Shown here piece by piece: positions 32-50,217 of a stretch of DNA of 64,000 nt; positions within the stretch are counted from its first letter, which is position 1, and every line of letters begins with the position of its first letter. The position numbers and the translations under genes were made by a program. This DNA comes from Aristaeella lactis (GTDB taxonomy: Bacteria; Bacillota; Clostridia; Christensenellales; Aristaeellaceae). Under the pieces are notes generated by a model. That model searched no databases and was not told the origin of the DNA. It saw nothing but the letters and a program-made list of their open reading frames with translations. The stretch is from assembly GCF_018118585.1 (NCBI RefSeq), contig NZ_CP069421.1, positions 1,116,001 to 1,180,000 of the forward strand, in the 5' to 3' direction.

Positions 32-1222
32 TTATTTTTTATTCAAAAGGCCCCATCTTCTCATCCATATCATCCTGCTATCATATTCCTGCATAGACGC
101 TATAGGCTTTCGGATTGTTACTCTTTCCTTCAAAAATACGTGTCTTTTTATTTGTCGCCACCATCGATGTATCCAAGCAATAGGCAGCAACAGTTTGCTA
201 TGTTTTAAATATCCATAAATATTTGTTCTGCTTAATACTTTCCATGATGGAAAAAATTCTTTCATGTATTGGCATATTAATGCCAGCCTGGGAAACCTGG
301 TATTACGCATCTCATTTACTGATGCACCAATTATATTATCCTTGTTATCAAATCCAAATACACCGTTACTTATGATTATCTGTGTTGCTTCTGCAAAAAA
401 AACTTCGTCTATTTTTACAGCCATTGGTGTTTGAAGTCCAAACCATCGTTCAATAAACCCAAAACATTTTTTTGCAAAACGATACATGCCTGTAGATTTA
501 AGATGTTCTTTTAACCAGTTCCAATCTATATCAATCTTTTGTACGACAACTGCTAAATCCATAAATTGACGGAATCCAACGCCAGAATTCATAAAATGTT
601 TACGTAGATGAAAAATAAGGAAAAGTAAATGAAAACTCCAGTTTATCTCATGATTTTCCACATATCTCCAACAATTGTTAAAAAACAAATCATGTCCTTC
701 CTCATTTACGTTTTCTTCATATACAAGTCGATCATGGAGTTCCAATTCTATTCCGTTTTTATAATACTGCCATTCTCTATCATCTTGTTTTGATCTGCAC
801 TCATACCCGTTTTGTATTAATATATCATTACACGAATCTCGATCTTCTCTGTGTATAACAAGATCTATATCTCCCATGGAACGTAGTTTCGGTGATGGAT
901 ATAATTCTGCTATGATCGGTCCTTTTACAACAAAATACGATATATTTTTCTCTGAAAGCGCCTTTTTAACAGAATCAAAATCATTATCTCTTTTAGCAGC
1001 ATAAAAAAGTGTAGCCATAGCTTCTTTTCTAAATGTCAGCTGCATTTCTATAGGCATACAATTCCTGGCTTGTTCAAAAACAATGCCACTCACCTGGTGT
1101 GTAAGAGCATATGAATGTATAACATTCCAATCCATATTATCTACACACCCTGTTTCCCGTCCATTCAGGTGATCTGACAGGATTTGTATGAAGAATGATT
1201 GTTCTTTTGTCATTTTCCCCAC
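32..1222 (-). CDS. Predicted nucleotidyltransferase (NTP_transf_5-like)
   Basis: A 396-residue protein that fits the uncharacterised nucleotidyltransferase family of Pfam PF14907. Seen: Lys100-Gly101, then Arg114 and the GDIDLVIH stretch (Asp118, Asp120), the KG..R..GD.D pattern in which the aspartates would bind the metal. No signal peptide or clear membrane segment. Members of this family are common in capsule and exopolysaccharide loci, but their substrate is not known. Here it is the last gene of the polysaccharide operon before the window edge, 6 nt after capF. The gene is AT-rich like the glycosyltransferase cassette and unlike capEGF beside it. Function beyond the fold is not inferred. 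Confidence 0.8.
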   Translation of the reverse strand: MGKMTKEQSFFIQILSDHLNGRETGCVDNMDWNVIHSYALTHQVSGIVFEQARNCMPIEMQLTFRKEAMATLFYAAKRDNDFDSVKKALSEKNISYFVVKGPIIAELYPSPKLRSMGDIDLVIHREDRDSCNDILIQNGYECRSKQDDREWQYYKNGIELELHDRLVYEENVNEEGHDLFFNNCWRYVENHEINWSFHLLFLIFHLRKHFMNSGVGFRQFMDLAVVVQKIDIDWNWLKEHLKSTGMYRFAKKCFGFIERWFGLQTPMAVKIDEVFFAEATQIIISNGVFGFDNKDNIIGASVNEMRNTRFPRLALICQYMKEFFPSWKVLSRTNIYGYLKHSKLLLPIAWIHRWWRQIKRHVFLKERVTIRKPIASMQEYDSRMIWMRRWGLLNKK

Positions 1223-3597: not shown

Positions 3598-4635
3598 TCA
3601 CTTGTTAGCCAGAGCTTCTTTTACATAATCTGTTGTCAGGATCTTTTCAACAACGCCGTCTACATCCAGCAATCTTGTGTTATGACTAGTATAACTCTCA
3701 TCCGCTTCTGTCACAACTTCGCCTTTGACGAAGTACTTATCATAGTTCAGATCACGGGTATCAGCTGCTACTCGGAAGTAATTGCCCATATCTTCGGAAC
3801 GAAGTCGTTCTTCCCTGGTCATGAGAGTTTCATACAGTTTCTCCCCATGACGGGTACCGATGATGTTGGTACCTGTATCACCAAAGAGTCTCTGGACACC
3901 CTTGGCAAGGTCTCCTATTGTGCTGGCATCGGCCTTCTGGATAAAGAGATCACCGGGATTTGCATGTTCAAAGGCAAAACGCACCAGTTCTACTGCCTCA
4001 TCCAGGTTCATGAGGAATCTGGTCATAGCCGGATTGGTAATGGTAATCGGATTGCCGGCTTTAATCTGGTCAATAAAGAGCGGAATAACTGATCCTCGGG
4101 AGCACATAACATTACCATAACGTGTACAGCAGATCACTGTACCTCCGCGATCTGCAGCCACACGAGCATTGGCTGTAATAACATGTTCCATCATGGCTTT
4201 GGAAATACCCATGGCGTTGATCGGGTATGCTGCTTTATCTGTAGAAAGGCAAACAACACGTTTCACACCGGCATCTATGGCAGCGTGGAGAACATTGTCT
4301 GTTCCTTCCACGTTGGTCTTCACAGCCTGCATCGGGAAAAATTCACAGGATGGAACCTGTTTCAGAGCAGCAGCATGGAAGATGTAGTCAACACCAGGCA
4401 TAGCATCTGCCACTGAACGCGGATCCCGGACATCTCCTACATAAAACTTCACTTTGGAAGCGTATTCGGGATATTTGGCTTGAATCTCATGGCGCATATC
4501 ATCCTGCTTCTTTTCGTCGCGAGAGAAGATACGGATTTGGCCGATGTCTGAAGTCAGGAAATGTTTCAGGACGGTGTGACCGAAGGAACCAGTACCGCCA
4601 GTAATTAAAAGTGTTGCTTGATTAAAAGCGCTCAT
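3598..4635 (-). CDS. capE: UDP-GlcNAc 4,6-dehydratase (5-inverting) CapE
   Basis: A 345-residue short-chain dehydrogenase of the CapE/FnlA/FlaA1 type. Seen: nucleotide-binding LITGGTGSFGHTVL, then FSRDEKKQDDMRHE and a conserved MGISKAMMEHV segment holding the catalytic Met-x-x-x-Lys of this subfamily. It removes water from UDP-GlcNAc and inverts C5, giving the L-arabino 4-keto intermediate used by CapF. It starts the capE-capG-capF set, with GGGAG upstream of the ATG. Codon use is less AT-rich than in the glycosyltransferase genes on its upstream side. FlaA1/PseB-type enzymes are the alternative; the CapF partner argues for CapE. Confidence 0.93.
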   Translation of the reverse strand: MSAFNQATLLITGGTGSFGHTVLKHFLTSDIGQIRIFSRDEKKQDDMRHEIQAKYPEYASKVKFYVGDVRDPRSVADAMPGVDYIFHAAALKQVPSCEFFPMQAVKTNVEGTDNVLHAAIDAGVKRVVCLSTDKAAYPINAMGISKAMMEHVITANARVAADRGGTVICCTRYGNVMCSRGSVIPLFIDQIKAGNPITITNPAMTRFLMNLDEAVELVRFAFEHANPGDLFIQKADASTIGDLAKGVQRLFGDTGTNIIGTRHGEKLYETLMTREERLRSEDMGNYFRVAADTRDLNYDKYFVKGEVVTEADESYTSHNTRLLDVDGVVEKILTTDYVKEALANK

Positions 4636-10699: not shown

Positions 10700-12023
10700 T
10701 TGATATGTATTCCTCACTTTTTTGCATGTCTTCAGTTCTTTCCGATTCAAATCCATAGAATATGAAAACATATGGCACCATAGAGACCAAATAGTTTTCA
10801 CCTATATAGAAAATAATCAAAAGAATAAATACTGAGAATGTAAATAACGCCCCTTTATGAAATACCCTTCCAAACAATGACGATCCGATTAGAAATAATC
10901 CTCCAAATATACAGCCATGTGCAGCAAACTGATAAAGAAATGTATTTGTATTTTGCGATGTCCACCCAAAGTACAAATCAGACGCTTTTGTAATTGTGTA
11001 CATTTGAGTTCCGACATTTTCCATACCGACACCGGTAAGAGGATGTGACCTTGCTATACTGATACTGGCAAAGAATGAAGCAAACCGTACCATGGTCGTT
11101 CCTTCTTTAAGGTTGTTTGCTTTACCAAAGACTTTTTGCCCGATAGATGTCCTAGTAATTATTTGCAATAAAATTATTAATAAAATAGGTAAAATAATAA
11201 ACCATCTATTTGCTTTAGATATTGTAGTATTTTTTCCCCCGAACAAAATATATATTAAAACAATCCATAAAAATGCTATATATCCAGTTGTAGAAAACGT
11301 GGATAATAAAGCAATACAATAAACGATGAGATATACTCTTCGTGGCCGGTTCTCAACAAATAGTTCAAATAGAATAGCCAAGTTAATAAACATCTGAAAA
11401 ACACCTGGCTCCCAAAAGATACCAAATGTACGAATCATCGGGCTATAGATAGTTGATATATCGAGACCAGCAAAAATAATTGTGGCAAACTTTACTCCTG
11501 CCGTATTCTCCATTCGTGGTAATTGTAATACTAAATCGGGAATTAAATATGATAAAATCCATAACACAGTAGATGAAATTGATATCAATAGAATTGAGTT
11601 TCGAAATGCCTTACTATAGTCTTTAAAGCTCAAGAGAATGCAAACAAATAATCCGCCCGACATAAATAGCATTTTGTTAATTGTTCGATTTATTAGTTCT
11701 TTATTGATTAAACTGATTACGATAAAAGTAACCAGCATGATACAATACATAACAAGTTGCTTTTTATGTTTTTGAATTGATTTTTGCCGTAAAAAATACA
11801 CAAATTCAAACAAGCAAAAGAGCAATAAAATATAACGGGGAAGGCTAACGAATAATGTGTTTTTATTAGAACCAAATAGATATGTATCATTTGAGAAAAA
11901 CATCAGAAAAAAAACCAATAACGTATTAGTCAATTCACTGGATCTGGAATCTGGTATTATTATATACTTACTATGATTGTCTGACTGTGAATTGTTCACA
12001 TATATACCATAGTTCTTTCCCAT
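10665..12023 (-). CDS. O-antigen polymerase/ligase-like membrane protein (Wzy)
   Basis: A 452-residue polytopic protein with about ten to twelve hydrophobic helices and a large extracytoplasmic loop late in the chain (roughly residues 285-360, including RFASFFASISIARSHPLTG). RxxxW/SHPLTGVG-type loops are typical of Wzy and WaaL proteins. As the only such protein beside a flippase, a Wzy-type polymerase of repeat units is the best inference. It is strongly AT-rich: the 60-base line at 11161 contains only 10 G+C. Sequence alone cannot separate a polymerase from a ligase. Confidence 0.82.
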   Translation of the reverse strand: MGKNYGIYVNNSQSDNHSKYIIIPDSRSSELTNTLLVFFLMFFSNDTYLFGSNKNTLFVSLPRYILLLFCLFEFVYFLRQKSIQKHKKQLVMYCIMLVTFIVISLINKELINRTINKMLFMSGGLFVCILLSFKDYSKAFRNSILLISISSTVLWILSYLIPDLVLQLPRMENTAGVKFATIIFAGLDISTIYSPMIRTFGIFWEPGVFQMFINLAILFELFVENRPRRVYLIVYCIALLSTFSTTGYIAFLWIVLIYILFGGKNTTISKANRWFIILPILLIILLQIITRTSIGQKVFGKANNLKEGTTMVRFASFFASISIARSHPLTGVGMENVGTQMYTITKASDLYFGWTSQNTNTFLYQFAAHGCIFGGLFLIGSSLFGRVFHKGALFTFSVFILLIIFYIGENYLVSMVPYVFIFYGFESERTEDMQKSEEYISNERKTCRYFVY

Positions 12024-24589: not shown

Positions 24590-27500
24590 TCAAGGATTAT
24601 TGGTCGGAAGTGCTTCCCGTTCCTGGTTGTACTTGTTCGTGAGGATCAGGTTGCCTTCAGCGTCGTAATAGCCGTTCCATCCGGCAACGCCTTCCGCGTT
24701 ATTAGTCAGCTTGTTATACCGGTCGAGATACCGTTCGGAGATCAGGCGTCCTGCGGAATCGTACTCTCGCTCACAGCTGAAGTAGCCATCATTGCAGTTT
24801 GTCTGTCCCCCGAATCGGTCATAGTAGCCTTCCCAGGTACGGTTGCCGTTCTCGTCTTCTTCGTACTGCAGCTGTGCGTAGCCTTTGTCGATGTTTGCGG
24901 GCTTCCCGTCCTCATCCAGGTAGGTGATCTCGTGCACACGGGTAGCCGGATAGTAGAGGCTGCTCATACCGTAAGCACCGTTGTTGGCTGTGGTCGGCTC
25001 ATCATTCGCATCAAAGTAGTACTGGAAATACTTCTCCACCTTTGCCGCGTTTGTCAGATCATAATCATAAGTCATAGCGGCGTATCCGTCTGCGTTCGGA
25101 GCGGGATTGCCGTTCTCATCTAACCAGGTTTCCTTGGCAATACGTCCGAAGGGAGTGTACTCGATGCTGACACCATAAGCGCCATTTACCTGTGTCTTGT
25201 CTCCCGTTGCGTCAAAGTATCTTTCCAAAGCCAGCTGTCCGCGTCCTGTGTATTCCTTTTCGACGGTGCTGGCACCTTCGGCACCGATTGCCGGATTCCC
25301 CTTCTTGTCGAAGTAGCTGATCCGGATCATCCGGTCATACTTGTCAAAGGTCTGGCGGCTTTCGATATAGGAGATATCGTCCATAGCCTCGTTCATGACG
25401 CGGAGAATATAGGTCCGGTTTTCTTCATCCTCTTCCAGGAGTTCGCGTCTGCTGTAGCCGTTCACTGCCACCGGTTTCTCTTCTGCGTCAATGTAGTTTT
25501 CTTCTTTTACATGACCGCTTTCGGTGTAGGTGGCATAGTGTCCGTAATAACCATCCCGGCAAAGAGCGGGCCTGTCCAGTTCATCGTAGTATTCTTCGCT
25601 CAGGATCCTGCCAGCCTCGTCATAAGCCATCAGGTAATAGGCGTAGGTGGAACCTTCGGGAACAACCTGCAAGTCTGAGGTGTTCAGATACCGTTCGGTG
25701 AGCCGGTTACCCAGTTCATCATAGGTGTATACAGCTTTGGCGTAACCCATCTGGGTATCAACCAGGTTATCATCAGCGTCGAAGTAAGCTTCCTCAGTCA
25801 TGAGACCCAGGGTGTTATAGGTTGTAGTCTTCTTTGCGAAGCCGCGGCGGACGCTCATCGGTTTGCCTTCGTTATCGTAGTAGGTAACCTCTGTCTGCCG
25901 TCCGGCCAGGTCGTATACGTAATGAGCTTCCGCGTAATCGCTGGCGTAATAGGTGGGCCGTCCCTGTTCATCGAAGAAACGAACTGCCAGAACACGGCCA
26001 TCCTGATCCACTTCCCTCGTCATGGAAGCATAACGTCCGTAGGTATGGAGAGCGGGTTTCCCACCACGAGTCAGCAGGCGCTCTTCAATGCAGTGGTTCC
26101 GGTCGTCATAAGTCAGCAGGATCTCGCAGTAACCGTCATTGCACCAGATCAGTTCATTGTCCTGGTTATAGTAGGATTCCCTGGTCTTGTTGTCATTGTT
26201 GTCATATTCATACCTGACCGTGCAGTAGCCGCTGGAAAGCTTTGCCGGCTGGCCGTCAACATCCAGGTATTCACGCTTTGTCACACGCCGTCTTGTATCC
26301 CAGGTGTTCCGCAGGGTGGCATATCCGCCTGCGCCGGCAACCGGCTGGTCTTCGTTGTTCAGGAAGGTTTCGGTCAGGATATCCCCGTTCTTGTCCACTT
26401 CACGGTGGACACCGGAATAACCAGCGCTGATATAGGTACGGTTGTATTTATCATCCAGGTAGATCGTACCGACCTGATTCAGATCCTTATCATAAATGAA
26501 TTCGCTGGCAGCGTAACCGTCCTTGAACAGAGTGGGCTGTCCGGAAATATCCAGGTAGGTGGTACGCCAAACTTTGCCCTGGTCACTGTATTCATAGCGG
26601 ATTCCGGCATAACCGCTGGAAATGATGGTGTTCAGGCCATTGGCATCCAGGTATTTCATGCCTGTACGCCGGTCATACTCATCATAGGTGTATTCAATAG
26701 TGGCATATCCGAATCTGGTTTCAACTGCCTGAAGACCTGAATTCAAGTACTCTGTACGGATCAGGTTTCCGCGATTATCGAATGAATAACGTCTTGCCGT
26801 ATCAAGATTGGTCAGGGAAGCGATCCTCTCGTTTTCATCCAGATACTGCTCTAAAGTAACGTGGTTGTATTTGTCATACTCACGCTGCCAGACACTGAAG
26901 CCTTCCGGCAGGCGGGTCAGCTTATCCTGTTCGTTCAGGTAGCGAACCTGGAGTACATTGTTGGCGTTGTCATAAACATTCTGGATGGCGGAATAGCCTT
27001 TTTTTGTCATGACGCGTGCCATCTTGTCATCCAGGTAGGATGTCTTGGTGACCCGGCCGCGTGCATCATATTCATACGCCGTTGCGGCATAGCCGTCCGG
27101 AAGGGTCACGATATCCATGTTGTAATACCAGACACTGCGGGCCTTCCGGTCCAGAGCATTATATACGTGGACTACCCTGTTGTAGCCGTCCGCAAGGACT
27201 GTCGGTGCGTCTTCGTGATGATACCAGGCTTCTTCCGTCAGGTTGTTGTGGTTATCATACTTGTAAGTCTTGTAGGCATAGGTATTTTCCTGCAGAGCAG
27301 GCTGATTATCATTATCAAACCAGGCTTCGCTGGTCAGGTTGCCGTGACTGTCCCAGGTCTGCAGCTTCTTTGCATATCCGCTGCGCTGCATCAGCAGGTT
27401 GCCCTTGCCGTCGCTGTATTCCTCGCTCAGCAGATGACCGCGGATATCGTAGGTATCCTTCTTCAGGGCATAGCCCTTGGTGGAGATCACGGGCTCCCCG

Positions 27501-30493
27501 TTTGTTCCGAAGAAAGCCTCTGTGAGCAGGTTGCCCAGCGCGTCATATTCACACTTCGTGGAGGCGTAGTCACCACGGAGCATGTAGGGTGTTCCTGTTT
27601 CGTCAAAATACTCTTCACTCAGCAGGCGGTTATCCGCGTCATATTCCCTGCGGACTTCAGCTGCACCGGCATAGATGTCAGTGATGTGGCCGTCAGCACC
27701 GTAATACACTTCACGGGTTGTATTGCCGTTGGCGTCATACTCGCAGACGAAGGCGGCATAGCCGTCCGGGCATTCGGCGGGATTATTGTTTTCGTCAAAG
27801 TATTTCTCACTCAGCTGATGACCTTCATTGTCCCAGGTGTTTTCCTGCTTGTGATAACCGGCTGCGATTTTTACGGGCTGATTCTGGGTACCGTAGTAAG
27901 CAATGCTCTTTACATTACCCATATAGTCCGTTTCAGTTTCTTTGGTGGCATAACCGAAGGATGTTTGCGCAGGTTCCCGATTATCGTTCAGGTAGGCAAT
28001 AGTTGTTTTGTTGGTTTCGTATGTGGTTTGAGTTACAGCATAGCCGTTGGGATTCAACATCAGGGAACCATCGGCATTGAAGAAAGCTTCTTCCGTAACC
28101 CTGCCCTGGGCGTCGGTCTGACGCTCCAGTTTGGCATAGCCAGGAGTGGAAGGAGCGATCAGGTTTCCGTTCTCATCATAGTAAGCACGCAGGGTCAGGT
28201 TCCCGGCATGGTCATACTTTGTTTCATAAGCGGCATAACCCAGAGTGATCAGTGCAGGTTTACCGTCCGCATCCAGATATTCCACTTTGGTAGTCATACC
28301 GGTTTCCGGATCATAGGCCAGTCTCCGGGCCGCGTATCCTTCAGTCTGGAGCACCGGGCGGCCGTTGGTGCCGATGTTCATTTCGTACACCATGTGATGA
28401 GCATTGTCATATTCACGTTCAACCTTAGCACGTCCGCTCACCAGAGTGGGCATATTTTCCGCATTATAGTATGAAATACCTGTAATATTGCCCTGGTTGT
28501 CATACTCATAGATGGCAGAGGCATATCCGTTGCTGTTGGTAACAGGATTGCCTTCAGCATCGAAGAACTTTTCACCGGTGTGGTGTCCGGCATAGTCATA
28601 GCTGTGTACCTGGGCGGCGTTGGTTCCGTTCACCGCCATGGGATTTCCGTCATCACCGTAGGTAATTTCCCACAGAAGACTTCCCTTGCTGTTGTATTCC
28701 CGCATCATGGCAGCTTCGCCGGTACGGGTGGCAGAAAGAGTGCCATCCGCGTTGTAATAATGAACAGAAGTCTGGAGCAGGTTCAGGTCATAGGTATAGG
28801 TAGCCTTGTGGGCACCGGTCGTTATGCTGGTATCCGGATTGCCATCTGCGTCAAAGAAAACTTCCTCAAGAAGCAGGTTCTTCTTGGGGCCACCGTAGAC
28901 CATGCTGCGGGCATAGGCACCGGAAATCTCTTCAGTAGGATTCCCGTTTTCATCGAAGTAAGCTTCAAATACTGCAGGATCTTCACGATCGTTGGAATCA
29001 TATGTATAGTCTATCCACGCATACTGTTTTTCGTCATTCCGTACAGGCTTCCACTGATCATCTTTATAGACTGTACGAATAACCTGTCCATTTTCATTCC
29101 TGTAGTTTTCATATCCTGCATAGCCAGCTTTACGTTTAATCAGCTGCATGTCTACGCCATATACTTTTTCCCATTTTACTTCATCTGGATCAACAATCCA
29201 GGATGACCTGGTTTTTTCATCAAAGCTATTATAAGGTATTATTTTCCATTCTATACGTGCATATCCACCATCAGTCAATGTGTATTCATCAAGAATATCA
29301 TAATAGGTTTCTCTAGCCGACCATTCACCATCTATACTATCATCGTATTCACGTTCGATCATGGACATTCCGTTTGTGACCATTGTACGTTCGCCATCAG
29401 CGCCAAAATAGCGGATATAGTGTACACGATCACTACTGCCGTAGTATTCATAGGTCACACGGGCATATCCGCTGAGCATCTTGATCAGATGCTCTTCTTT
29501 ATCGAGATAGTCAATCTGGATAACGCGGTCATATTCATCGTATATATTGATAATAGAAGCGTAGCCGTATCCGGAGATTACAGGATCTCCGTCTGCATCA
29601 TAGTAGTCTTTACGTATCAGATTTCCGCGCTCGTCATAACTACAGATTTCACGCTGCCAGCGTTTTGCACCAAGAGACGCAGACCCGTCTGTTGAAAAAA
29701 TCTCCGTAGACAGCAGCATCGGTTTTCTGTCTTCAGTCTTCTGATGATACTTATTTAGCGGTTCATTTGCCGGGTAATACTCATCACGTGCACCCATGGA
29801 CATAACCATGCCCAGGCCCATATTGTCCACTCTTGCGTTAACCGCGGCAGTTAGGCCTTTGGCATAAATGTATATTACTTTGGAACCGCCTTCCGCCCCC
29901 AGCAGAGGAATATTGTCCACACCTTCATAACGCTTTGTAATAACGATTGCGTTCTCGTCTTCTTCCCTGCTGTAAAGAATACGGGCATATCCGCCTGTCG
30001 GCTGGGTTATGTTGCCTTGCGCATCATAATACGTTGTAGAGTAGATCTGATCTCCGTCCCAAATATCCCTGCGATAGCTGTAACCACCGGGAATATCCGC
30101 ACGGCTGCCGTCAGCGGCATAACGGTCTTCAGCCACGATATGAGGAACTTTGTTGGAGTCATTTTCATAAGTAAACACAGCTTTGGCATATCCGCCGTCA
30201 GCATTTATCGGTTCACCATTCAGTCCGGTGTATGCTTCCGTCAGCGGATTTCCTTTTTCATCCCAAGTGTATTCAGCTTTATAGAATCCACGAGCATTAA
30301 TGGCAGGATTGCCGTCCGAGTCCACAGCTGTTTCGCTGATGAGCCTGCCATCTTCATCCCATTCACAATCTGTACGGGTTGCATTTGGCATACGAAGACT
30401 TTGGGGCGTCGTTGCAGCAGACGCTCCATGAAGTACACTGAATACAAGCATCAGTGCCAGAATGACCGGGATGATCTTTGCCAGCTTTTTCAT
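24590..30493 (-). CDS. Giant exported YD-like repeat protein
   Basis: A 1967-residue protein with a signal peptide (residues 1-26, ending HGASA) and then about 57 units of roughly 32 residues to the C-terminus. A typical unit reads LLSEEYFDETGTPYML, then a GYA motif, then YDxxGN. The pattern resembles RHS/YD repeats (beta-strand pairs around YD and GN), but the RHS core end and any toxin domain are absent; the chain simply stops after LILTNKYNQEREAL. Units differ at many positions, so this is old duplication. Its ATG overlaps the autokinase stop (TAATG). A filament or shell that binds the polysaccharide is one possible role; none is established. Confidence 0.85.
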   Translation of the reverse strand: MKKLAKIIPVILALMLVFSVLHGASAATTPQSLRMPNATRTDCEWDEDGRLISETAVDSDGNPAINARGFYKAEYTWDEKGNPLTEAYTGLNGEPINADGGYAKAVFTYENDSNKVPHIVAEDRYAADGSRADIPGGYSYRRDIWDGDQIYSTTYYDAQGNITQPTGGYARILYSREEDENAIVITKRYEGVDNIPLLGAEGGSKVIYIYAKGLTAAVNARVDNMGLGMVMSMGARDEYYPANEPLNKYHQKTEDRKPMLLSTEIFSTDGSASLGAKRWQREICSYDERGNLIRKDYYDADGDPVISGYGYASIINIYDEYDRVIQIDYLDKEEHLIKMLSGYARVTYEYYGSSDRVHYIRYFGADGERTMVTNGMSMIEREYDDSIDGEWSARETYYDILDEYTLTDGGYARIEWKIIPYNSFDEKTRSSWIVDPDEVKWEKVYGVDMQLIKRKAGYAGYENYRNENGQVIRTVYKDDQWKPVRNDEKQYAWIDYTYDSNDREDPAVFEAYFDENGNPTEEISGAYARSMVYGGPKKNLLLEEVFFDADGNPDTSITTGAHKATYTYDLNLLQTSVHYYNADGTLSATRTGEAAMMREYNSKGSLLWEITYGDDGNPMAVNGTNAAQVHSYDYAGHHTGEKFFDAEGNPVTNSNGYASAIYEYDNQGNITGISYYNAENMPTLVSGRAKVEREYDNAHHMVYEMNIGTNGRPVLQTEGYAARRLAYDPETGMTTKVEYLDADGKPALITLGYAAYETKYDHAGNLTLRAYYDENGNLIAPSTPGYAKLERQTDAQGRVTEEAFFNADGSLMLNPNGYAVTQTTYETNKTTIAYLNDNREPAQTSFGYATKETETDYMGNVKSIAYYGTQNQPVKIAAGYHKQENTWDNEGHQLSEKYFDENNNPAECPDGYAAFVCEYDANGNTTREVYYGADGHITDIYAGAAEVRREYDADNRLLSEEYFDETGTPYMLRGDYASTKCEYDALGNLLTEAFFGTNGEPVISTKGYALKKDTYDIRGHLLSEEYSDGKGNLLMQRSGYAKKLQTWDSHGNLTSEAWFDNDNQPALQENTYAYKTYKYDNHNNLTEEAWYHHEDAPTVLADGYNRVVHVYNALDRKARSVWYYNMDIVTLPDGYAATAYEYDARGRVTKTSYLDDKMARVMTKKGYSAIQNVYDNANNVLQVRYLNEQDKLTRLPEGFSVWQREYDKYNHVTLEQYLDENERIASLTNLDTARRYSFDNRGNLIRTEYLNSGLQAVETRFGYATIEYTYDEYDRRTGMKYLDANGLNTIISSGYAGIRYEYSDQGKVWRTTYLDISGQPTLFKDGYAASEFIYDKDLNQVGTIYLDDKYNRTYISAGYSGVHREVDKNGDILTETFLNNEDQPVAGAGGYATLRNTWDTRRRVTKREYLDVDGQPAKLSSGYCTVRYEYDNNDNKTRESYYNQDNELIWCNDGYCEILLTYDDRNHCIEERLLTRGGKPALHTYGRYASMTREVDQDGRVLAVRFFDEQGRPTYYASDYAEAHYVYDLAGRQTEVTYYDNEGKPMSVRRGFAKKTTTYNTLGLMTEEAYFDADDNLVDTQMGYAKAVYTYDELGNRLTERYLNTSDLQVVPEGSTYAYYLMAYDEAGRILSEEYYDELDRPALCRDGYYGHYATYTESGHVKEENYIDAEEKPVAVNGYSRRELLEEDEENRTYILRVMNEAMDDISYIESRQTFDKYDRMIRISYFDKKGNPAIGAEGASTVEKEYTGRGQLALERYFDATGDKTQVNGAYGVSIEYTPFGRIAKETWLDENGNPAPNADGYAAMTYDYDLTNAAKVEKYFQYYFDANDEPTTANNGAYGMSSLYYPATRVHEITYLDEDGKPANIDKGYAQLQYEEDENGNRTWEGYYDRFGGQTNCNDGYFSCEREYDSAGRLISERYLDRYNKLTNNAEGVAGWNGYYDAEGNLILTNKYNQEREALPTNNP

Positions 30494-32022
30494 TACTCTT
30501 TATTCCCCCTGCGATTGTTTCGGGTCTCCTGATTCCGGTTGTCATTCTGGCTTAGCTTTTGGCTGCTTGCCTGAATTCGCGTGTCATACTTGTTGTAATA
30601 CTGATATCCCCTTTGGGATCTCTTGCTGTAATACCTGCCCTGATGGATATTTTCTCCATAGAATACAAACCCCAGTACTTCCAGACCTGTCATCTCCGCG
30701 CTGATCAGTGCCCTGCGGATTTCCCTATGGTCAGAGAAATTCTGTCTCACAACGAACAGTGCGCCTGCGCATTGGCCAGATAGTGCAAGTGGATCAGATA
30801 CGATGTTGATTGGTGGAACGTCCATCAGAATCAGATCATACTTTTCTTCCAGTTCTTTCAGTAGTTCCTGCATAGCCGGGGATTCCAGCAATTCGCAGGG
30901 ATTAGTCGGAACAGCACCAGCTGGAAGTACATCCAGGTTGTCCCAGGTGGAATTTAAAATGGCCTGTTCTACTTTTATGTTACTGGTAAGAATATCAGAA
31001 AGGCCCGGAGAATTCGGATCATAGTAGAACATCTCGCTTTGGCAGGCGCGACGCATATCTCCGTCAACAAGAAGCACTTTCTTTCCACTTAGAGCAAGTG
31101 ATACAGCCAGGTTAGCAGCAATGGTGGATTTACCCTCACCGGAGATAGCACTGGTCACCAGGACAGTCCGGCGCATTTTTTCACTCATGGTATATAGCAG
31201 GTTCATGCGAAGTTTCGCATAGCTCTCTACCATATCCATGTCGGTTTTGTCATTTAGAAGAAATACGCCTGCATCCTTTTCTTCCCCTTTTGCCCGACGG
31301 ATATAAGAAAGGATTGGTGGCGTATAATTGTCTGTAAGTTCTGCAGGTTTTTCTACACGGTGATTCATGAGGAATAATAAAGTAAGAAGAGCGCATGCAA
31401 TCACAGCACCAATAAGCGCACCGATTATACCTTTTTTCATGTCATTGCGACCGTTCGCAAACATTGGAATAGTCGCATAATCCTGAGCTTTCGCTTCACC
31501 AGCAGCAACAACATCCTTGATCGCAGTCGGTGCAACCTGTAATACGCTGTTGCAGATATCAGCAGACAGTTCAGGGTATGGAGTAGTGCAGCTGACCCGA
31601 ACCATAGGAGTTTCATGAACGGAGTTCATTGAAATAACGTTCCGAATGAAGTCTGTGGAAAGCCCCGGGTATTTTTGACTCAGAAGAAGATCGTTTTCAT
31701 TCCCGTTCTCGCCTGCAGGTTCAATAGCGTATTCCAGAACCTTCTGCATGACGGTTTCGCTTTTTACGACCTCGCTGTAGATATTCACCAGCTGTACCGC
31801 GCTAGAAATATCAGAAGTACTGGTGTAGCCGTAGTTGACCAAATTGGGGTTGCTGTTGGTAACGAACATGGTGCCAGAAGCGGTATACGTATCTATGGCT
31901 TTGGATGCTCTCCAGTACATAAAGCCGAATCCTATGGCTGCGCAAATGATCACAAGCCAGATACGCTTGAGAATGTATACAGCGAGTCTTGCCAGATCGA
32001 TGCTTCCACTCTGCTTGTTCAT
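30493..32022 (-). CDS. Wzz/BY-kinase: polysaccharide co-polymerase with tyrosine autokinase
   Basis: A 509-residue fusion. Seen: TM1 (about 20-37), an extracytoplasmic Wzz loop, TM2 (198-219), then the cytoplasmic kinase with Walker A SAISGEGKST (291-300), Walker A' VLLVDGD (317-322) and Walker B LILMDVPP (397-404). The C-terminal tail has a tyrosine cluster (Tyr464, 465, 473, 475, 476, 479) for autophosphorylation. In Firmicutes Wzz and kinase are usually two proteins (CpsC and CpsD); here they are one, as in proteobacteria. It controls chain length and assembly. First gene of the long operon, about 290 nt after a good promoter. Confidence 0.93.
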   Translation of the reverse strand: MNKQSGSIDLARLAVYILKRIWLVIICAAIGFGFMYWRASKAIDTYTASGTMFVTNSNPNLVNYGYTSTSDISSAVQLVNIYSEVVKSETVMQKVLEYAIEPAGENGNENDLLLSQKYPGLSTDFIRNVISMNSVHETPMVRVSCTTPYPELSADICNSVLQVAPTAIKDVVAAGEAKAQDYATIPMFANGRNDMKKGIIGALIGAVIACALLTLLFLMNHRVEKPAELTDNYTPPILSYIRRAKGEEKDAGVFLLNDKTDMDMVESYAKLRMNLLYTMSEKMRRTVLVTSAISGEGKSTIAANLAVSLALSGKKVLLVDGDMRRACQSEMFYYDPNSPGLSDILTSNIKVEQAILNSTWDNLDVLPAGAVPTNPCELLESPAMQELLKELEEKYDLILMDVPPINIVSDPLALSGQCAGALFVVRQNFSDHREIRRALISAEMTGLEVLGFVFYGENIHQGRYYSKRSQRGYQYYNKYDTRIQASSQKLSQNDNRNQETRNNRRGNKE

Positions 32023-32514: not shown

Positions 32515-32672
32515 CCTTTTCATCTCGATCAGAGTCTCAGGAAATCTGCCCCCTGATGTCATCTCGACCGGAGTCGTATAAAACCAGCCCCTGATGTCAT
32601 CTCGACCGGAGCCAAACAAAATCAGCCCCCTGATGTCATCTCGACCGAAGCCGAAGGCGGAGTGGAGAGATC
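32515..32672 (+). repeat. Tandem GTCATCTCGACCGG repeat, about four units
   Basis: Units of 38-39 nt starting near 32515, 32553, 32591 and 32630; the core is CTGATGTCATCTCGACCGGA. The last unit continues into GGCGGAGTGGAGAGATCTG, which is the full-length form found at 62231-62565. Further single copies occur near 32731 (GTCATCCCGACC), 32812 (GTCATTCCGACC), 23329 and 56926. Confidence 0.75.
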
Positions 32673-32854
32673 TGTTCCTGTTAGTAATAATATGACGGCC
32701 AAACTATATACCATTCATCCCCGCCCCCGTTGTCATCCCGACCGTGGTGGGATCTCCTACGGGTTCAGAACGAAACAACACACATAGGATTCATTCAGCA
32801 GCGCACCTAGCATGTCATTCCGACCAAGCGTCAGCGTGTGGAGGAATCCCCCTG

Positions 32855-32883
32855 ATACAAAATAGGTGGCATTTCTGCCACCT
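32855..32883 (-). terminator. Intrinsic terminator of the peptide gene
   Basis: On the minus strand AGGTGGCA, loop GAAA, TGCCACCT, then ATTTTGT. It sits 20 nt after the stop of the 62-residue peptide gene, which makes that gene a closed unit with its own promoter. Confidence 0.75.
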
Positions 32884-32902: not shown

Positions 32903-33091
32903 TCAGGGTTCAAATCCCTGTACGTTTTGTCCGCTGGCTCCACCGGTCTGTGTTGGCGGAAATGCAGGACCGGGCTGGAATCCTGAAGCATTTTGTCCTC
33001 CACCGGTAATGGTCTGCACACTTTCAGTCATAAAGCTTACATCCTTATCCAGCTTGATGACTTCAACCTTGGGCTTTTCGTATGTGCTCAT
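32903..33091 (-). CDS. Small peptide precursor with a double-glycine leader pattern
   Basis: A 62-residue product starting MSTYEKPKVEVIKLDKD. A leader of 31 residues ends TESVQTITGG with hydrophobic residues at -4 (Ile28), -7 (Val25) and -12 (Phe20) relative to GG, the pattern cut by C39 peptidases. The predicted 31-residue core has no cysteine and repeats GQNxxGFxP twice (GQNASGFQP and GQNVQGFEP) around a proline-rich middle. AGGAG is 8 nt before the ATG; a strong promoter and a terminator flank it. No modifying enzyme is adjacent. The only C39-type exporter in the window is at 45830. The role is unknown: signal, bacteriocin-like or structural peptide. Confidence 0.7.
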   Translation of the reverse strand: MSTYEKPKVEVIKLDKDVSFMTESVQTITGGGQNASGFQPGPAFPPTQTGGASGQNVQGFEP

Positions 33092-33143
33092 CTTCTTCGC
33101 TCCTTTGTTTTGGGGTGTGTAAACGGTTTTTGCATTTGTATGT

Positions 33144-33173
33144 ATTGTATATATCATTTTGTTCCTTTGTCAA
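33144..33173 (-). promoter_or_regulatory. Promoter of the peptide gene
   Basis: TTGACA, 18 nt, TACAAT on the minus strand, about 45 nt before the peptide SD. Consensus -35 and near-consensus -10 suggest strong constitutive expression. Confidence 0.75.
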
Positions 33174-45328: not shown

Positions 45329-45817
45329 ATGTCCGAACAGACAAAAACAAAGCTTTTCCGGGAGAAAAGCCTGGAAGCCGTGGAATCCCCCGAGAGCCTG
45401 AATGATTACCTGCGCGTGACCTCCCCCGGAGTCTGGCTGATCCTAGCCGCGGTCATCGTGCTGCTGGTAGGCGCCATCCTGTGGGGAATCTTCGGCCATA
45501 TCCGCACAACGGCGAAGGTCGCTGTTTCCGTTTCAGAAGGCAAGACTGTCTGCTATGTCCCCTATAACAAGGTGGACGGCGTCATGGCCCAGGGCGTGAT
45601 CACCCTGGAAGGCCGGGAATACCCCCTGGACACGGAAGCGGAATGTGAGCTCGTCATGATCGAGAAGGACACTCCCCTGCGCGTCATGAAGGCCGGAGAG
45701 CTGAACATCGGCGATCCGGTGGTGCTCGTCCCCGCGGACACGGACCTCAAAGACGGCGTCTATGCCGGGGTGGCTGTCACGGAGGACCTGCAGCCCATCT
45801 CCCTGCTGCTGCAGTAA
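45329..45817 (+). CDS. Short NHLM-type secretion protein (HlyD-like, reduced)
   Basis: A 162-residue protein: basic N-terminus (FREKSLEAVESPESLNDYLR), one membrane helix (VWLILAAVIVLLVGAILWGI, about 34-53) and a short extracytoplasmic part with an SH3-like or barrel-sandwich look (GKTVCYVPYNKVDGVMAQG, LNIGDPVVLVPADT). The N-terminus is that of the NHLM bacteriocin secretion protein (TIGR03794), normally about 400 residues; the coiled coil and lipoyl part are missing. A reduced adaptor would suit a single-membrane cell. It leads the operon, 12 nt before the peptidase transporter gene. Confidence 0.8.
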   Translation: MSEQTKTKLFREKSLEAVESPESLNDYLRVTSPGVWLILAAVIVLLVGAILWGIFGHIRTTAKVAVSVSEGKTVCYVPYNKVDGVMAQGVITLEGREYPLDTEAECELVMIEKDTPLRVMKAGELNIGDPVVLVPADTDLKDGVYAGVAVTEDLQPISLLLQ

Positions 45818-45829
45818 GGAGGGTTCGGC

Positions 45830-48010
45830 GTGTTTGGATTGAAGAAAGCGGTGCCAAAGCCCATTGAGAAGGGCGTGGCCCGCGTACCCGTGGTCATGCA
45901 GATGGAGGCGCTGGAATGCGGTGCCGCCTCCCTGACCATGATCATGCACTACTATAAAATGTGGATCCCGCTGGAGCAGGCCCGCGTGGACTGCGGCGTT
46001 TCCATGGACGGCGCCAGCGCCAAGAACATCATGGTGGCGGCCCGCAGCTACGGCATGACCGCCAACGCCTGGCGGGTGGAGCCCGAAGACCTGCAGAAGG
46101 AAGGCCCCTTCCCCTGCATCATCCACTGGGGCTTCAACCACTTCGTGGTCCTGTGCGGCTTCCAGGGAAACCGCGCGGTCATCAACGACCCTGCCCGTGG
46201 CCGTGTGAAAGTGGAATGGGAGGAGTTCGACCGGGAGTTCACCGGCGTATGCCTGTGCTTTGAGCCCGGAGAAGCCTTCGTCCCCTCCGGCAAGCCCAAG
46301 AGCGTTATTTCCTATGCCAAAGAGCGCCTGAAGGGCAGCGGCACCGCCGTCGCCTTTGTGGTGCTGACCACCACCATCGCCAGCCTCATGGGCATCATCC
46401 AGCCGGCTTTCTCCCGGACCTTCCTGGACCGGCTGCTCTCCGGCAGCAACCCGGACTGGCTGACCCCGTTCATCCTGCTGTTCCTGCTCTTCACGCTGAT
46501 CAGCATCGCGGTCACCTGGATCTCCGCCACCTATTCCCTGCGCATCCAGGGCAAGATGACCTCCTACGGCAGCAGCAGCTACCTCTGGAAGGTGCTCCGC
46601 CTGCCGATGCAGTTCTTCTCCCAGCGTATGAGCGGTGATATTGCCGACCGCCAGAGCACCAACGCGACCATCGCCACCACCCTGGTGCAGATCTTCGCTC
46701 CCCTGGTCATCCAGGGCGCCATGATGATCTTCTACCTGGCGGTCATGATCCATTACAGCCCGCTGCTGGCGGCCATCGGCGTCGGGGCCATCATCCTGAA
46801 CCTGATCGTTTCCGCCCTGGTCACCGCCAGGCGCCTGAACATCACCCGCGTACAGCAGCGGGACTCAGCGAAGCTCTCTTCCGCCACCATGTCCGGCATC
46901 TCCATGATCGAGACCATCAAGTCCAGCGGCGCGGAGAACGGCTTCTTCGGCCGGTGGGCCGGCTACCAGGCCAGCGTGAACACACAGAGCGTTTCCTATA
47001 CCAAACTGAATCTCTTCCTGGGCACCCTGCCCAGCGCCATCACCGCGGCGGCCAATATCGCCGTTCTGGGTCTCGGCGTGCTGCTGGTCATCCGCGGCCG
47101 GTTCACCGCCGGTATGGTCATGGCCTTCCAGGGCTTCCTGGGTTCCTTCATGGCCCCGGCCAGCGCCCTTATCAACGCGGGCCAGAGCATGCAGGAGATG
47201 ACCACCCAGATGGAGCGGGTGGACGACGTCATGAGCTATCCCGAAGATCCTTCCTTCAGACCCCGTGAGAAGACCGCCGAGTACCAGAAGCTCTCCGGCG
47301 CCATTGAGCTGAAGAACGTCACCTTCGGCTATTCCCGCCTGGGCAAACCGCAGATCACCGATTTCTCCATGACCGTGAAGCCCGGCCAGAAGATCGCCTT
47401 CGTCGGCCGCACCGGCTGCGGCAAGAGCACCCTGGCCAAACTGATCTCCGGCCTGTACCGTCCCTGGAGCGGCACAATCACCTTCGACGGCGCCTCCCTG
47501 GATGAGATCGACCGGGACGTGTTCACCGGTTCCGTCAGCGTCATCGACCAGGATATCACCCTGTTCGAGGACACGGTCAGCCAGAACATCAAAATGTGGG
47601 ATGACTCCATTGAGGACTTTGAAGTCACCCTGGCCGCCCGGGACGCCGGCATCTATGATGATATCGTCACCCGGGAAGGCGGCTTCCTGCACAAGCTCCT
47701 GGATGGCGGACGCGATCTGTCCGGCGGGCAGCGCCAGCGCCTGGAGATCGCCCGGGCCCTTTCCCAGGATCCCACCATCTGCATCATGGATGAAGCCACC
47801 AGCGCCCTGGACGCCCGGACCGAGTACGAGGTCATCAAGTCCATCAACGCCCGCGGCATCACCTGTATCATTATCGCCCACCGCCTTTCCACCATCCGGG
47901 ACTGCGATGAGATCATCGTCCTGGACAAGGGAAAGATCGTGGAGCGCGGCACCCATGACGAACTGTACGCCCAGGGCGGGTATTACACTGCCCTGGTCAG
48001 CAATGAGTAA
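45830..48010 (+). CDS. NHLM-type peptidase-containing ABC exporter
   Basis: A 726-residue peptidase, permease and ATPase in one chain. Seen: C39 protease with Cys30 (MEALECGAASLTM), His104 (HWGFNHFVVL) and Asp120 (INDPARG), then six membrane helices, Walker A VGRTGCGKST (about 525), signature LSGGQRQRLE (about 629) and Walker B CIMDEATSALD (about 650). It should cut a double-glycine leader and export the peptide. It matches the NHLM family ABC1 group (TIGR03796). GTG start with AAGGAGGG upstream. The second transporter follows after 17 nt. Confidence 0.92.
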   Translation: MFGLKKAVPKPIEKGVARVPVVMQMEALECGAASLTMIMHYYKMWIPLEQARVDCGVSMDGASAKNIMVAARSYGMTANAWRVEPEDLQKEGPFPCIIHWGFNHFVVLCGFQGNRAVINDPARGRVKVEWEEFDREFTGVCLCFEPGEAFVPSGKPKSVISYAKERLKGSGTAVAFVVLTTTIASLMGIIQPAFSRTFLDRLLSGSNPDWLTPFILLFLLFTLISIAVTWISATYSLRIQGKMTSYGSSSYLWKVLRLPMQFFSQRMSGDIADRQSTNATIATTLVQIFAPLVIQGAMMIFYLAVMIHYSPLLAAIGVGAIILNLIVSALVTARRLNITRVQQRDSAKLSSATMSGISMIETIKSSGAENGFFGRWAGYQASVNTQSVSYTKLNLFLGTLPSAITAAANIAVLGLGVLLVIRGRFTAGMVMAFQGFLGSFMAPASALINAGQSMQEMTTQMERVDDVMSYPEDPSFRPREKTAEYQKLSGAIELKNVTFGYSRLGKPQITDFSMTVKPGQKIAFVGRTGCGKSTLAKLISGLYRPWSGTITFDGASLDEIDRDVFTGSVSVIDQDITLFEDTVSQNIKMWDDSIEDFEVTLAARDAGIYDDIVTREGGFLHKLLDGGRDLSGGQRQRLEIARALSQDPTICIMDEATSALDARTEYEVIKSINARGITCIIIAHRLSTIRDCDEIIVLDKGKIVERGTHDELYAQGGYYTALVSNE

Positions 48011-48027: not shown

Positions 48028-50217
48028 ATGGGCTGGTTTGATGATCAGATTGAATTCCGAAAAAAACATGAACGGGAGCTGCTGAGCGACTCCTTTGAGA
48101 ACATCGCCCGGAGCGTCACAGGCCGGAAAGTCCGCAAGAGCCTGCTGAACGACCAGGAAGACGTCAGCGATGCGGTCAGCGCCCTCCTGCGCCACATGGG
48201 CGTCAAGGAAAAAGAGGTTCCCCCGACCGTCCGCGGCCTGCGGGACCGGCTGGATTACCTGCTGTCCTCCACGGGCATCCTGTACCGTGAGATCATTCTC
48301 ACCAAGGGCTGGCAGAATGACGCCATGGGCCCCATGATCGCAAGCCTGAAGGATTCCGGTGCGGTCATCGCCGTGCTGCCCAGCGAGATGGGCGGCTATG
48401 AGTACATGGACCCCGCCACCGGCAAAAAGGTGGGCGTCAACGTCCATACCGCCGCGAACATCAGTGAGGAAGCGCTGTGCTTCTACCGTCCCCTGCCCAT
48501 GCGGGCCCTGAAACTGCGGGACCTCCTGAAGTATATGATGAGCTGTCTCACCGGCCGCGACCTGGTCAGCTTCGGCGTCGCCGCCCTGGCCATCACCCTG
48601 GTGGGCCTGCTGATCCCGAAGCTGAACCAGATCCTGACCGGCACGGTCATTGCCACCGGCAGCACCAGGCTCCTGCTGGCCGTGGTGAGCTTCCTGCTCT
48701 TCGCCACGATCACCGGAATCCTTCTGACCATTATCCGGAATATGCTTTTGTCCCGCATCCGGTATAAGCTGAACATCAACGTCAGCGCCGCCACCATGAT
48801 GCGGATCCTGAGCCTGCCCGCCTCCTTCTTCAAGTCCTACAGCGTGGGTGAACTCAACCAGTACATCAGCTATATGGACAGCCTGTGCACCACTCTAGTG
48901 GACAGCCTGTTCAGCACCGCGGTCACAGGCCTTTTCTCCCTGATCTATTTAGGGCAGATCATGACCTTCGCTCCGAGCCTTGTCTGGCCCAGCCTGATCG
49001 TCACCCTGCTGACACTGGCCGTGAGCCTGATCTCCGCCCGGGTGCAGATGCGCATTGACCAGGAAACCATGGTGCAGGTCGCCCGGGAACGGGGCCTGGT
49101 ATACAGCCTCATCAACGGCATCCAAAAGATCCGCCTCTCCGGTGCGGAGAACCGGGCCTTCGCCAAGTGGTCTGAGCTGTATGTCCAGAGCGCTTCCACC
49201 ACCTTCAACCCGCCGGCCATCATCCGGCTCAGCAGCGTTCTGACAACAGCCATCTCCCTCATCGGTACGGCGGTCATGTATTTCATCGCCGTGAAGAGCA
49301 GGGTCAGCATCGCTGACTACTTCGCCTTCAACGCGTCCTACGCGAACATTTCCACCGCTTTCTCCGCCCTGGCCACCATGGCCCTGTCCGCCGCGTCCAT
49401 CAAGCCGGTCATCCAGCTGATCAAGCCCCTGCTGGAAGCAACGCCCGAGGCCAGCGGCAACCGGGAGACCGTGACCCGCCTCAGCGGCAATATCGAGATC
49501 AGCCACGTCACCTTCAGCTACGATCCGGACAGCAAGCCCATCTTTGAGGACTTCTGCCTCACCATTCCCGCCCGGCAGTATGTGGCGATCGTCGGCAAGA
49601 GCGGCTGCGGAAAGAGCACCCTGGTACGCCTGCTCCTGGGTTTTGAAAAGCCTACCCGCGGCGTCATCAACTACGACCGCAAGGACCTGCAGCAGCTGGA
49701 CATGCGTTCCGTCCGGAGGCAGATCGGTACCGTCATGCAGGACGGCCGGCTCTTCTCCGGCAGCATCTTTGACAACATCGTCATCTCCGCCCCCACCCTC
49801 AAGCTGGAGGAAGCCTGGGAGGCCGCGGAGATCGCCGGCATCGCGGATGACATCAGGGATATGCCTATGGGCATGCATACGGTCCTGCAGGACGGCGGCG
49901 GCACCATTTCCGGCGGTCAGCGCCAGCGCCTGATGATCGCCCGGGCCATCGCCCCCAAGCCCCGCATCCTGATCTTTGACGAGGCCACCAGCGCCCTGGA
50001 CAACATCACCCAGCGCAAGGTGTCCGAAGCCCTGGACAAGATGAAGTGCACCCGCATCGTCATCGCCCACCGCCTGAGCACCATTAAGCACTGCGACCGC
50101 ATTCTCGTCATCGACGGCGGAAAGATCGCCGAGGACGGCACATACGAAGAGCTGATCGCAAAGAACGGCATCTTTGCCGAGCTGGTCGAGCGCCAGAAGC
50201 TCAGCAACGAGAGTTGA
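48028..50217 (+). CDS. NHLM-type ABC exporter, second subunit without peptidase
   Basis: A 729-residue ABC protein with a distinct N-terminal domain of about 160 residues (FDDQIEFRKKHERELLSDSF; PPTVRGLRDRLDYLLS) in place of the protease, then six helices and an ATPase: Walker A GKSGCGKSTLV (about 521), signature ISGGQRQRLM (about 625), Walker B ILIFDEATSALD (about 645). This is the NHLM ABC2 group (TIGR03797), which pairs with ABC1 as a heterodimer. The stop TGA is supplied by the start of a family C repeat (GTTGACAG). No precursor or modifying enzyme gene follows. Confidence 0.92.
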   Translation: MGWFDDQIEFRKKHERELLSDSFENIARSVTGRKVRKSLLNDQEDVSDAVSALLRHMGVKEKEVPPTVRGLRDRLDYLLSSTGILYREIILTKGWQNDAMGPMIASLKDSGAVIAVLPSEMGGYEYMDPATGKKVGVNVHTAANISEEALCFYRPLPMRALKLRDLLKYMMSCLTGRDLVSFGVAALAITLVGLLIPKLNQILTGTVIATGSTRLLLAVVSFLLFATITGILLTIIRNMLLSRIRYKLNINVSAATMMRILSLPASFFKSYSVGELNQYISYMDSLCTTLVDSLFSTAVTGLFSLIYLGQIMTFAPSLVWPSLIVTLLTLAVSLISARVQMRIDQETMVQVARERGLVYSLINGIQKIRLSGAENRAFAKWSELYVQSASTTFNPPAIIRLSSVLTTAISLIGTAVMYFIAVKSRVSIADYFAFNASYANISTAFSALATMALSAASIKPVIQLIKPLLEATPEASGNRETVTRLSGNIEISHVTFSYDPDSKPIFEDFCLTIPARQYVAIVGKSGCGKSTLVRLLLGFEKPTRGVINYDRKDLQQLDMRSVRRQIGTVMQDGRLFSGSIFDNIVISAPTLKLEEAWEAAEIAGIADDIRDMPMGMHTVLQDGGGTISGGQRQRLMIARAIAPKPRILIFDEATSALDNITQRKVSEALDKMKCTRIVIAHRLSTIKHCDRILVIDGGKIAEDGTYEELIAKNGIFAELVERQKLSNES

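Follow-up and report, generated by a model that had tools for sequence, protein, structure and literature searches.

Introduction

Linear polyphosphorylated peptides (LPPs) are reported to be encoded with a gene set made up of a RiPP recognition element (RRE), an HprK-like kinase, a signal peptidase I (SpI), an NTP transferase, and an MsbA-like ABC transporter (PMC13381572). LppA from Paenibacillus alginolyticus has Tyr at -16 and Pro at -13, is cut after Thr at -1, and carries a phosphate on Ser3, with a Tyr-Ser distance of 18 (PMC13381572). The C39 peptidase consensus consists of Leu-12, Glu-8, and Leu-7 (PMC6363468). NHLP and Nif11 precursors go with exporters of the TIGR03794/03796/03797 type (PMC2887384).

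Here, we analyzed a window of 64,000 nucleotides, the whole stretch of DNA under study, from a host that may be a member of the Clostridia by its gene content. The window encodes a 62-residue peptide, P0001 (Table 1). Its leader has the YxxPxV motif that is also found in LppA (YEKPKV, residues 4-9), and the two have in common a Ser about 18-20 residues downstream, a variable C-terminus, and a polysaccharide-locus setting (PMC13381572). They differ in the place of the Ser, which is core residue 3 and 18 residues after the Tyr in LppA but 20 residues after it in P0001. The LPP motif HQxIxFETxxS (PMC13381572) is matched loosely by FMTES in P0001, which adds a GG and sits in the same slot as a C39 exporter. 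The F-x-T of the LPP leader end is present as F20-M21-T22, but the Ser would then be core residue 2, not 3. The P0001 genome also holds genes resembling the HprK/RRE/SpI/NTP-transferase/ABC set, yet P0001 is not beside them.

P0001 shares with the NHLP and Nif11 systems a GG and an exporter of that type, which is 12.7 kb from P0001 and adjacent to its counterparts in G066, a genome of the same genus. In contrast to those systems, the P0001 leader is a short YxxP leader in which no TIGR03793 or TIGR03798 type was recognized. The [Y/W]xxP motif and a B1-type RRE (in G066, with model matches to 6jx3 and 5v1u/5v1v) are shared with lasso and paeninodin-like peptides. Lasso ring closure uses an Asp or Glu at core positions 7-9, and there is no such residue at positions 7-9 of P0001 counted from G30, G31, or G32.

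Results

The P0001 gene

P0001 is encoded by a 62-codon ORF, as the initial annotation had proposed, and we consider the gene real. Its frame scored 0.096 bit/codon compared to -0.13 to -1.04 for the five other frames, and none of 2000 base shuffles reached this score. The value is low among the genes here, for which the 5% point was 0.07 and the median 0.54 (137 windows from 14 window genes). The gene had also been described as monocistronic, with a promoter and a terminator of its own, and the 11/12 promoter-like sequence and the hairpin after the stop agree with this. The 1.4-kb region around P0001 contained 12 promoter-like sites compared to 3.1 expected and three terminator-like sites compared to 1.0 expected. 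An alternative ATG at 33157, upstream of this start, would give an 84-residue version of P0001 and would precede the predicted transcription start. Short interspersed repeats of ~45 bp, with 93-96% identity between places, were seen at 32520-32676 and 62250-62528 of the window, and a 57-bp repeat at 82% lies inside 32520-32676.

Table 1. Features of the window that bear on P0001 (positions are those of the window)
Feature	Positions	Strand	Basis
P0001, 62-residue precursor MSTYEKPKVEVIKLDKDVSFMTESVQTITGGGQNASGFQPGPAFPPTQTGGASGQNVQGFEP	32903..33091	-	ORF call, codon usage
Promoter-like TTGACA-18-TACAAT, 11/12	33144..33173	-	
Ribosome-binding site AAGGAG, 8 nt before the P0001 ATG	33100..33105	-	
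Terminator-like hairpin, just 3' of the P0001 stop	32864..32883	-	
YEKPKVEV, residues 4-11, RRE-binding type motif [Y/W]xxPx[L/V/I/F/A]	33059..33082	-	motif from PMC13381572
Ser24, family-conserved Ser, 20 residues past the aromatic residue	33020..33022	-	alignment by position
G30-G31, candidate C39 cut site (I-4, V-7, F-12)	32999..33004	-	
Residues 32-62, Cys-free, predicted disordered (pLDDT <50)	32906..32998	-	
Repeat copy 1, GQNASGFQP	32972..32998	-	
Repeat copy 2, GQNVQGFEP	32906..32932	-	
Polysaccharide tyrosine autokinase (TIGR01007, 157.1 bits), slot flank	30493..32022	-	
Short HlyD-like protein, NHLM export system (TIGR03794 partial, 39.3 bits, cut-off 156.2)	45329..45817	+	
NHLM exporter ABC1 with C39 peptidase (TIGR03796, 889.3 bits, cut-off 853.3)	45830..48010	+	
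NHLM exporter ABC2 (TIGR03797, 711.6 bits, cut-off 709.4)	48028..50217	+	
NTP_transf_5 protein (154.8 bits), polysaccharide cluster downstream of the 1.103-1.109 Mb group	32..1222	-	

The GG site and the core

The initial annotation had placed Ile, Val, and Phe at -4, -7, and -12 ahead of a GG, followed by a 31-residue Cys-free core with GQNASGFQP and GQNVQGFEP, and the P0001 sequence bears out both statements. The C39 pattern that it drew from them stood in part: the GG is preceded by hydrophobic residues at I28 (-4), V25 (-7), and F20 (-12), but the residue at -8 is Ser and not Glu. Compared to the consensus, P0001 therefore reads F-12, S-8, and V-7, plus I-4. The six of nine identities between the two copies of the GQNxxGFxP repeat were reached by 90 of 20,000 core shuffles. 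By eye, a longer repeat could be aligned, TITGG.GQNASGFQP with TQTGGASGQNVQGFEP, giving the unit TxTGG.(x)GQNxxGFxP. Since this repeat includes TxTGG, P0001 has two copies of the candidate cut site (residues 27-31 and 47-51).

AlphaFold, run with four sequences, predicted leader strands at residues 2-15 and 18-30 (pLDDT ~73) and no order in residues 32-62, so that the change from order to disorder falls at residue 31/32, with low confidence (mean pLDDT 57.4). The computed monoisotopic masses are 3029.390 for residues 32-62, 4002.862 for residues 22-62, and 6471.131 for uncut P0001. Residues 23-62 come to 3901.81 by subtracting Thr, and each phosphate would add 79.966.

The initial annotation had stated that no described family with this core was known, and our searches agree. 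No family was found for P0001 in Pfam or NCBIfam up to E 10. Thus, neither a nitrile-hydratase-like (TIGR03793) nor a Nif11 (TIGR03798) leader was recognized. A narrow literature search, with most subscription journals outside it, turned up no paper on this core or on the combination of an RRE leader with a C39 site.

A family of short-peptide leaders

Judged by its sequence, the P0001 leader (YEKPKVEV...FMTES) belongs to a scarcely described family of short-peptide leaders. The shared form is approximately [YF]xxPxxEVxxFxxxD-[IV]-x-[TA]-S, and the tails after the Ser differ (65 distinct peptides). A profile with four rows (P0001 first, then its relatives P0004, pep1, and pep2, described below) matched such N-termini both in the class (23 of 391 genomes) and in the family (18 of 308 genomes) at E<=0.01; both counts include the P0001 genome, and the second also includes the source genomes of the other rows. 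A scan of the loci, minus 115 stretches matching a KPxxE pattern, gave 70 peptides, from which five regex artefacts were dropped (L006, L008, L088, L098, and L116). The 65 that were kept are defined by the motif and ribosome-site filter of our script and are not an unbiased census. The distance from the aromatic residue to the Ser was 19 in 50 of them, 18 in nine, 20 in five (P0001 included), and 21 in one. When eight leader-family peptides and one Prevotella peptide were searched against Pfam and NCBIfam, none scored above a cut-off; there was one paeninodin match, at 12.1 bits (cut-off 27).

One genome, G802 (L316-L327 and L331-L340), gave 12 profile matches, and the scan recovered ten peptides from it that share the leader but have tails unrelated to each other. 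FYN, FYD, FN, or FD forms the end of six of these ten. In G056, two Cys-rich leader-family peptides, together with rSAM, RRE, and HprK-like genes, directly follow an NHLM ABC2 gene (L095:2-3280).

A working cut site should exceed chance, and the GG does not. A GG after the Ser was present in 23 of the 65 members compared to a mean of 20.7 in shuffled tails (129 of 500 shuffles reached 23). At Ser+5 to Ser+9, seven were observed compared to 4.5 in shuffles (67/500 reached this number), and a GG with hydrophobic residues at -4 and -7 was observed twice (P0001 and P0004) compared to 0.5 (47/500). The double-glycine cut site is uncommon in the leader family, and the GG as a conserved trait of the family was rejected, since none of the three measures gave an excess over shuffled tails.

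Relatives of P0001

A search of the P0001 genome found P0001 itself, a weak paralogue, P0002 (E 0.07), and two further matches at E 1.09 and 2.27; a similar peptide, P0003, adjoins P0002. Nearby are a PqqD-family protein (45.1 bits), a radical SAM/SPASM protein, two ABC transporters, and a protein that we read as HprK-like and that has no Pfam or NCBIfam match. Among 199 other genomes of the family, the whole design had a single homologue, P0004 in G051 (FEKPEAEV...DVIATSITTVTGGGQGAQG; E 4.5e-8), which has V-4 and I-7 at its GG. G066 encodes two tandem peptides, pep1 (...DVIATSTQDVGAGEG...) and pep2 (...DIITTSTTTIIVGGQDAQGCPINNPPPIP), the first of which has GA in place of GG and Asp at -4. The position of the GG is kept at Ser+6 in P0001 and P0004 and Ser+7 in pep2, and P0004 and pep2 are the nearest relatives of P0001 that have a GG. 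Two of 45 genus genomes, those of P0001 and G066, were found to hold relatives in which GQ or Q comes after a GG at Ser+6/+7. In a more distant relative, from G580, the GG is at Ser+5 and the neighbors are an RRE and an HprK-like gene.

Searches further afield gave no match to P0001 by tblastn in plasmids and phages. A profile, A3, picked out 192 pattern stretches from genome contigs and a further 51 from viral contigs, none of which was confirmed by tblastn at 1e-3. The DNA pattern KPxxE-V-[IV/M]..GGGQ occurred in 115 stretches of genome contigs, 35 of them in open frames of <=160 codons. Two of these 35, L206 (Prevotella) and L273, resemble YxKP-GGGQ peptides but end in acidic tails; they were set aside, as their kinship to P0001 was not established.

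The initial annotation had looked to homologues that keep the GG and that occur with C39 transporters. Relatives were indeed found by tblastn and profile searches, and such peptides co-occur with a C39 transporter in G000 and G066. On the other hand, pep1 lacks the GG, as do 42 of the 65 leader-family members after the conserved Ser, and G051 (89% complete), the home of the closest homologue, gave no match to Peptidase_C39. These expectations therefore failed in part.

Gene neighborhoods and LPP-like gene sets

Neighborhoods were scored by tblastn (E<=1e-4) at 13 places in 13 genomes outside G802, a non-random choice made by hand from the class and family profile lists, and at 10 of the 12 G802 matches. 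An RRE was near 8 of the 13 places (L330, L341, L343, L344, L346, L348, L349, and L350); an HprK-like kinase was also present in seven, and SpI-like and NTP-transferase genes were also present in six. At L342, L335, and L340, the peptide itself was missing from the neighborhood output, and they were counted as places without an RRE. No RRE was found in the 10 G802 stretches (eight around recovered peptides and two around further matches), some of which are short or at contig ends. With five of 13 places and all 10 G802 stretches lacking an RRE, the leader family is not always accompanied by LPP genes. No RRE, HprK-like, or SpI-like gene was found in the P0001 window or in 19.7 kb around P0004; maturation in trans, with RREs from other loci acting on P0001, is therefore assumed.

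The P0001 genome, with three known RREs, has such loci. At ~2.322 Mb of contig 1 (~2.3223-2.3267 Mb), there is an LPP-like set with a 29-residue precursor, MEKYEALEMEVVRFEAEDVICASQQYPTK, that has the same leader. In this set, PqqD (42.4 bits) and NTP_transf_5 (139.0 bits) are both above cut-off and an ABC transporter is also present; the archaeal-type SpI (41.1 bits) is below its cut-off of 51.85, and the HprK-like protein has weak matches only, far under cut-off. A second group at 1.103-1.109 Mb holds two HprK-like genes, an RRE, an SpI-like gene, and an rSAM gene and is followed by a polysaccharide cluster, whose NTP transferase sits 32 kb from P0001.

The NHLM/C39 exporter and the kinase-exporter slot

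The initial annotation had named the gene at 45830, 12.7 kb from P0001, as the sole C39 exporter and had noted that it lacks a precursor. It holds the only Peptidase_C39 match found in the genome, and there is no precursor next to it in the window. However, a canonical GG precursor (...FELNEVTGG...) is present in the genome ~55 kb from the exporter, at 1107025-1107249 of contig 1; this precursor was itself a row of the alignment used for searching.

In G066, where the exporter is 90% identical, the gene order is ABC2-, ABC1-, HlyD-, pep1+, pep2+, RRE+, kinase+, and giant repeat protein+. The window keeps these flanks and their orientation to each other. P0001 adjoins the kinase there, ~12 kb of other genes separate it from HlyD, and the slot between kinase and exporter is widened to 13.3 kb compared to ~1.2-1.35 kb in G066. 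In the one other congener that has GG peptides of this kind, the precursors are at the slot position that P0001 occupies. The G066 cassette, with two precursors and a lasso-B1-like RRE, lies at L024:11410-12641. In the window, a 1967-residue repeat protein with one weak RHS_repeat match directly follows the tyrosine kinase (24590-30493).

The putative RRE of G066 is a 115-codon frame that overlaps the pep2 stop; aligned to RREs, its start may be Met28, ~77 bases on. It scored 17.6 bits with PqqD, compared to a cut-off of 23.4. Its model (pLDDT 71) matches solved structures of lasso B1 proteins with bound leaders (6jx3_B, E 7.7e-5, plus 5v1u and 5v1v), and on this structural prediction we take the frame to be an RRE. 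No SpI-like or HprK-like gene was found in 48 kb of G066. The congeners G149 and G175 have the same flanks, with 69 of 69 bases identical on the HlyD side and 88.5% over 660 and 85.8% over 787 columns on the kinase side. Their spacers measure ~0.12 and ~0.29 kb, compared to ~1.35 and ~1.23 kb for the peptide-RRE stretch of G066, and no remnants of P0001, pep1, pep2, or the RRE were found in them. The slot is therefore variable.

The exporter was present in 33 of 45 genus genomes and 77 of 200 family genomes. A GG peptide of the P0001 type adjoined it in one of 36 stretches with >=77% identity (35 of the 36 were examined twice), which is a lower bound, since several are cut by contig ends. On these counts, an exporter dedicated to P0001-type GG peptides was rejected as a general rule. 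RRE or HprK-like genes were found in five of the 36 stretches (L024, whose RRE was itself a query, L095, L101, L103, and L114) and in none of five stretches around exporters of ~60% identity. Canonical GG precursors adjoin HlyD in L101 and L103, whereas that of L114 is 2.8 kb upstream; another GG peptide (...LENVVGG...) is found ~3 kb upstream in L103. The canonical GG precursors of this clade have short leaders, for example LNDNQLEQVSGG, that are unlike the P0001 leader.

The canonical precursors (LNDNQLEQVSGGAFNFY...) form a small family of their own near NHLM exporters or RRE/HprK-like genes (L101 ~3860-4084, L103 ~11111-11335, L114 ~6566-6799, and L124:1848-2078). Kinase matches were seen in 13 of the 36 exporter stretches. 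At L083:18092-19086 (G582), the same kinase gene ends early, after 266 codons, and is followed by a fragment similar to an SpI-like RiPP protein (59%, 85 residues).

Discussion

We consider it on balance probable that P0001 is an orphan RRE-guided precursor, related to the LPPs, that is matured in trans. This reading is preferred over a cut at the GG because the leader is unlike the GG leaders of the clade and its family is often near RRE, HprK-like, SpI-like, and NTP-transferase genes. Weighing against it are the absence of RRE, HprK-like, and SpI-like genes from the window and from the stretch around P0004, the Ser spacing of 20, the loose FMTES match, the GG kept in P0004 and pep2, the G066 pair beside the C39 exporter with an RRE but neither an HprK-like nor an SpI-like gene in 48 kb, and the leader-family places that lack an RRE. 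The motif and the family context suggest that a discrete PqqD-like RRE, with its gene at another place in the genome, would bind the YEKPKV leader. An HprK-like kinase would phosphorylate Ser24, whose position corresponds within two residues to that of Ser3 in LppA. A signal-peptidase-I-like enzyme would cut before Ser24, after M21 or T22, to give a linear Gly/Pro-rich peptide of 40-41 residues. The released peptide would include the TITGGGQN stretch, and the GG would be part of a Gly-rich, duplicated core. An ABC transporter would then export the peptide, possibly after tailoring by the NTP transferase. Binding, phosphorylation, cleavage, and export of P0001 are all deduced from sequence.

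The main alternative, a serious one although less probable, is that P0001 is a hybrid with an RRE-type leader and a GG site. Cleavage would then follow G31, and the NHLM/C39 exporter at 45830 would export the product, whether or not RRE-guided modification came first. G066 places pep1, pep2 (the one with the GG), and the RRE between the HlyD gene of the exporter and the kinase, the slot that also holds P0001, and both genus genomes with a GG at Ser+6/+7 have it in this kinase-exporter slot. Hydrophobic residues are kept at the GG (I-4/V-7 in P0001 and V-4/I-7 in P0004), the low-confidence AlphaFold boundary falls at the candidate cut, and RRE or HprK-like genes accompany 5 of the 36 exporter stretches, one of these being the G066 query RRE. 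A C39 domain can also be very substrate tolerant, as described for LahT150 (PMC6363468). Against a cut by this exporter are the missing C39 match in G051 at 89% completeness, the GG peptide adjoining just 1 of 36 exporter stretches (a lower bound), the GA and Asp-4 of pep1, the absence of E-8, and the GG frequency in the leader family, which is that of shuffled tails.

A broader form of this idea is that P0001 and the G066 pair represent a precursor type with a two-part leader, in which a lasso/LPP-type RRE-binding segment is followed by a GG handed to the NHLM C39 exporter. We put it forward tentatively and think it rather unlikely. The G066 cassette may then be the minimal form, without a recognized modification enzyme.

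It is improbable that P0001 is a decayed orphan whose cluster was lost and which is transcribed but no longer matured. The window without RRE, HprK-like, or SpI-like genes, the varying slot content among congeners, the lack of a peptide-RRE cassette in G149 and G175, and the low codon score for a gene here would all fit decay. Nevertheless, the ORF, the ribosome site, the strong promoter and terminator, the leader motif, and the Ser are intact, and G802 holds other leader-family copies without a nearby RRE. The reading of the initial annotation, a class II-like unmodified GG peptide whose leader serves the C39 exporter alone, accounts for the GG with hydrophobic residues at -4, -7, and -12 and for the promoter and terminator but is very improbable given a leader of a family often near RRE genes, canonical GG precursors in the clade that look different, and one such precursor in the same genome.

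By its leader, P0001 joins a wide set of short peptides with an RRE-type leader and unrelated tails, of which one genome has at least ten. Prochlorosins are a combinatorial peptide system, and these bacteria would have a comparable one if a single LPP-like set served to mature such orphans in trans. The P0001 locus is also well suited to testing whether one precursor can use both an RRE leader and a C39 site.
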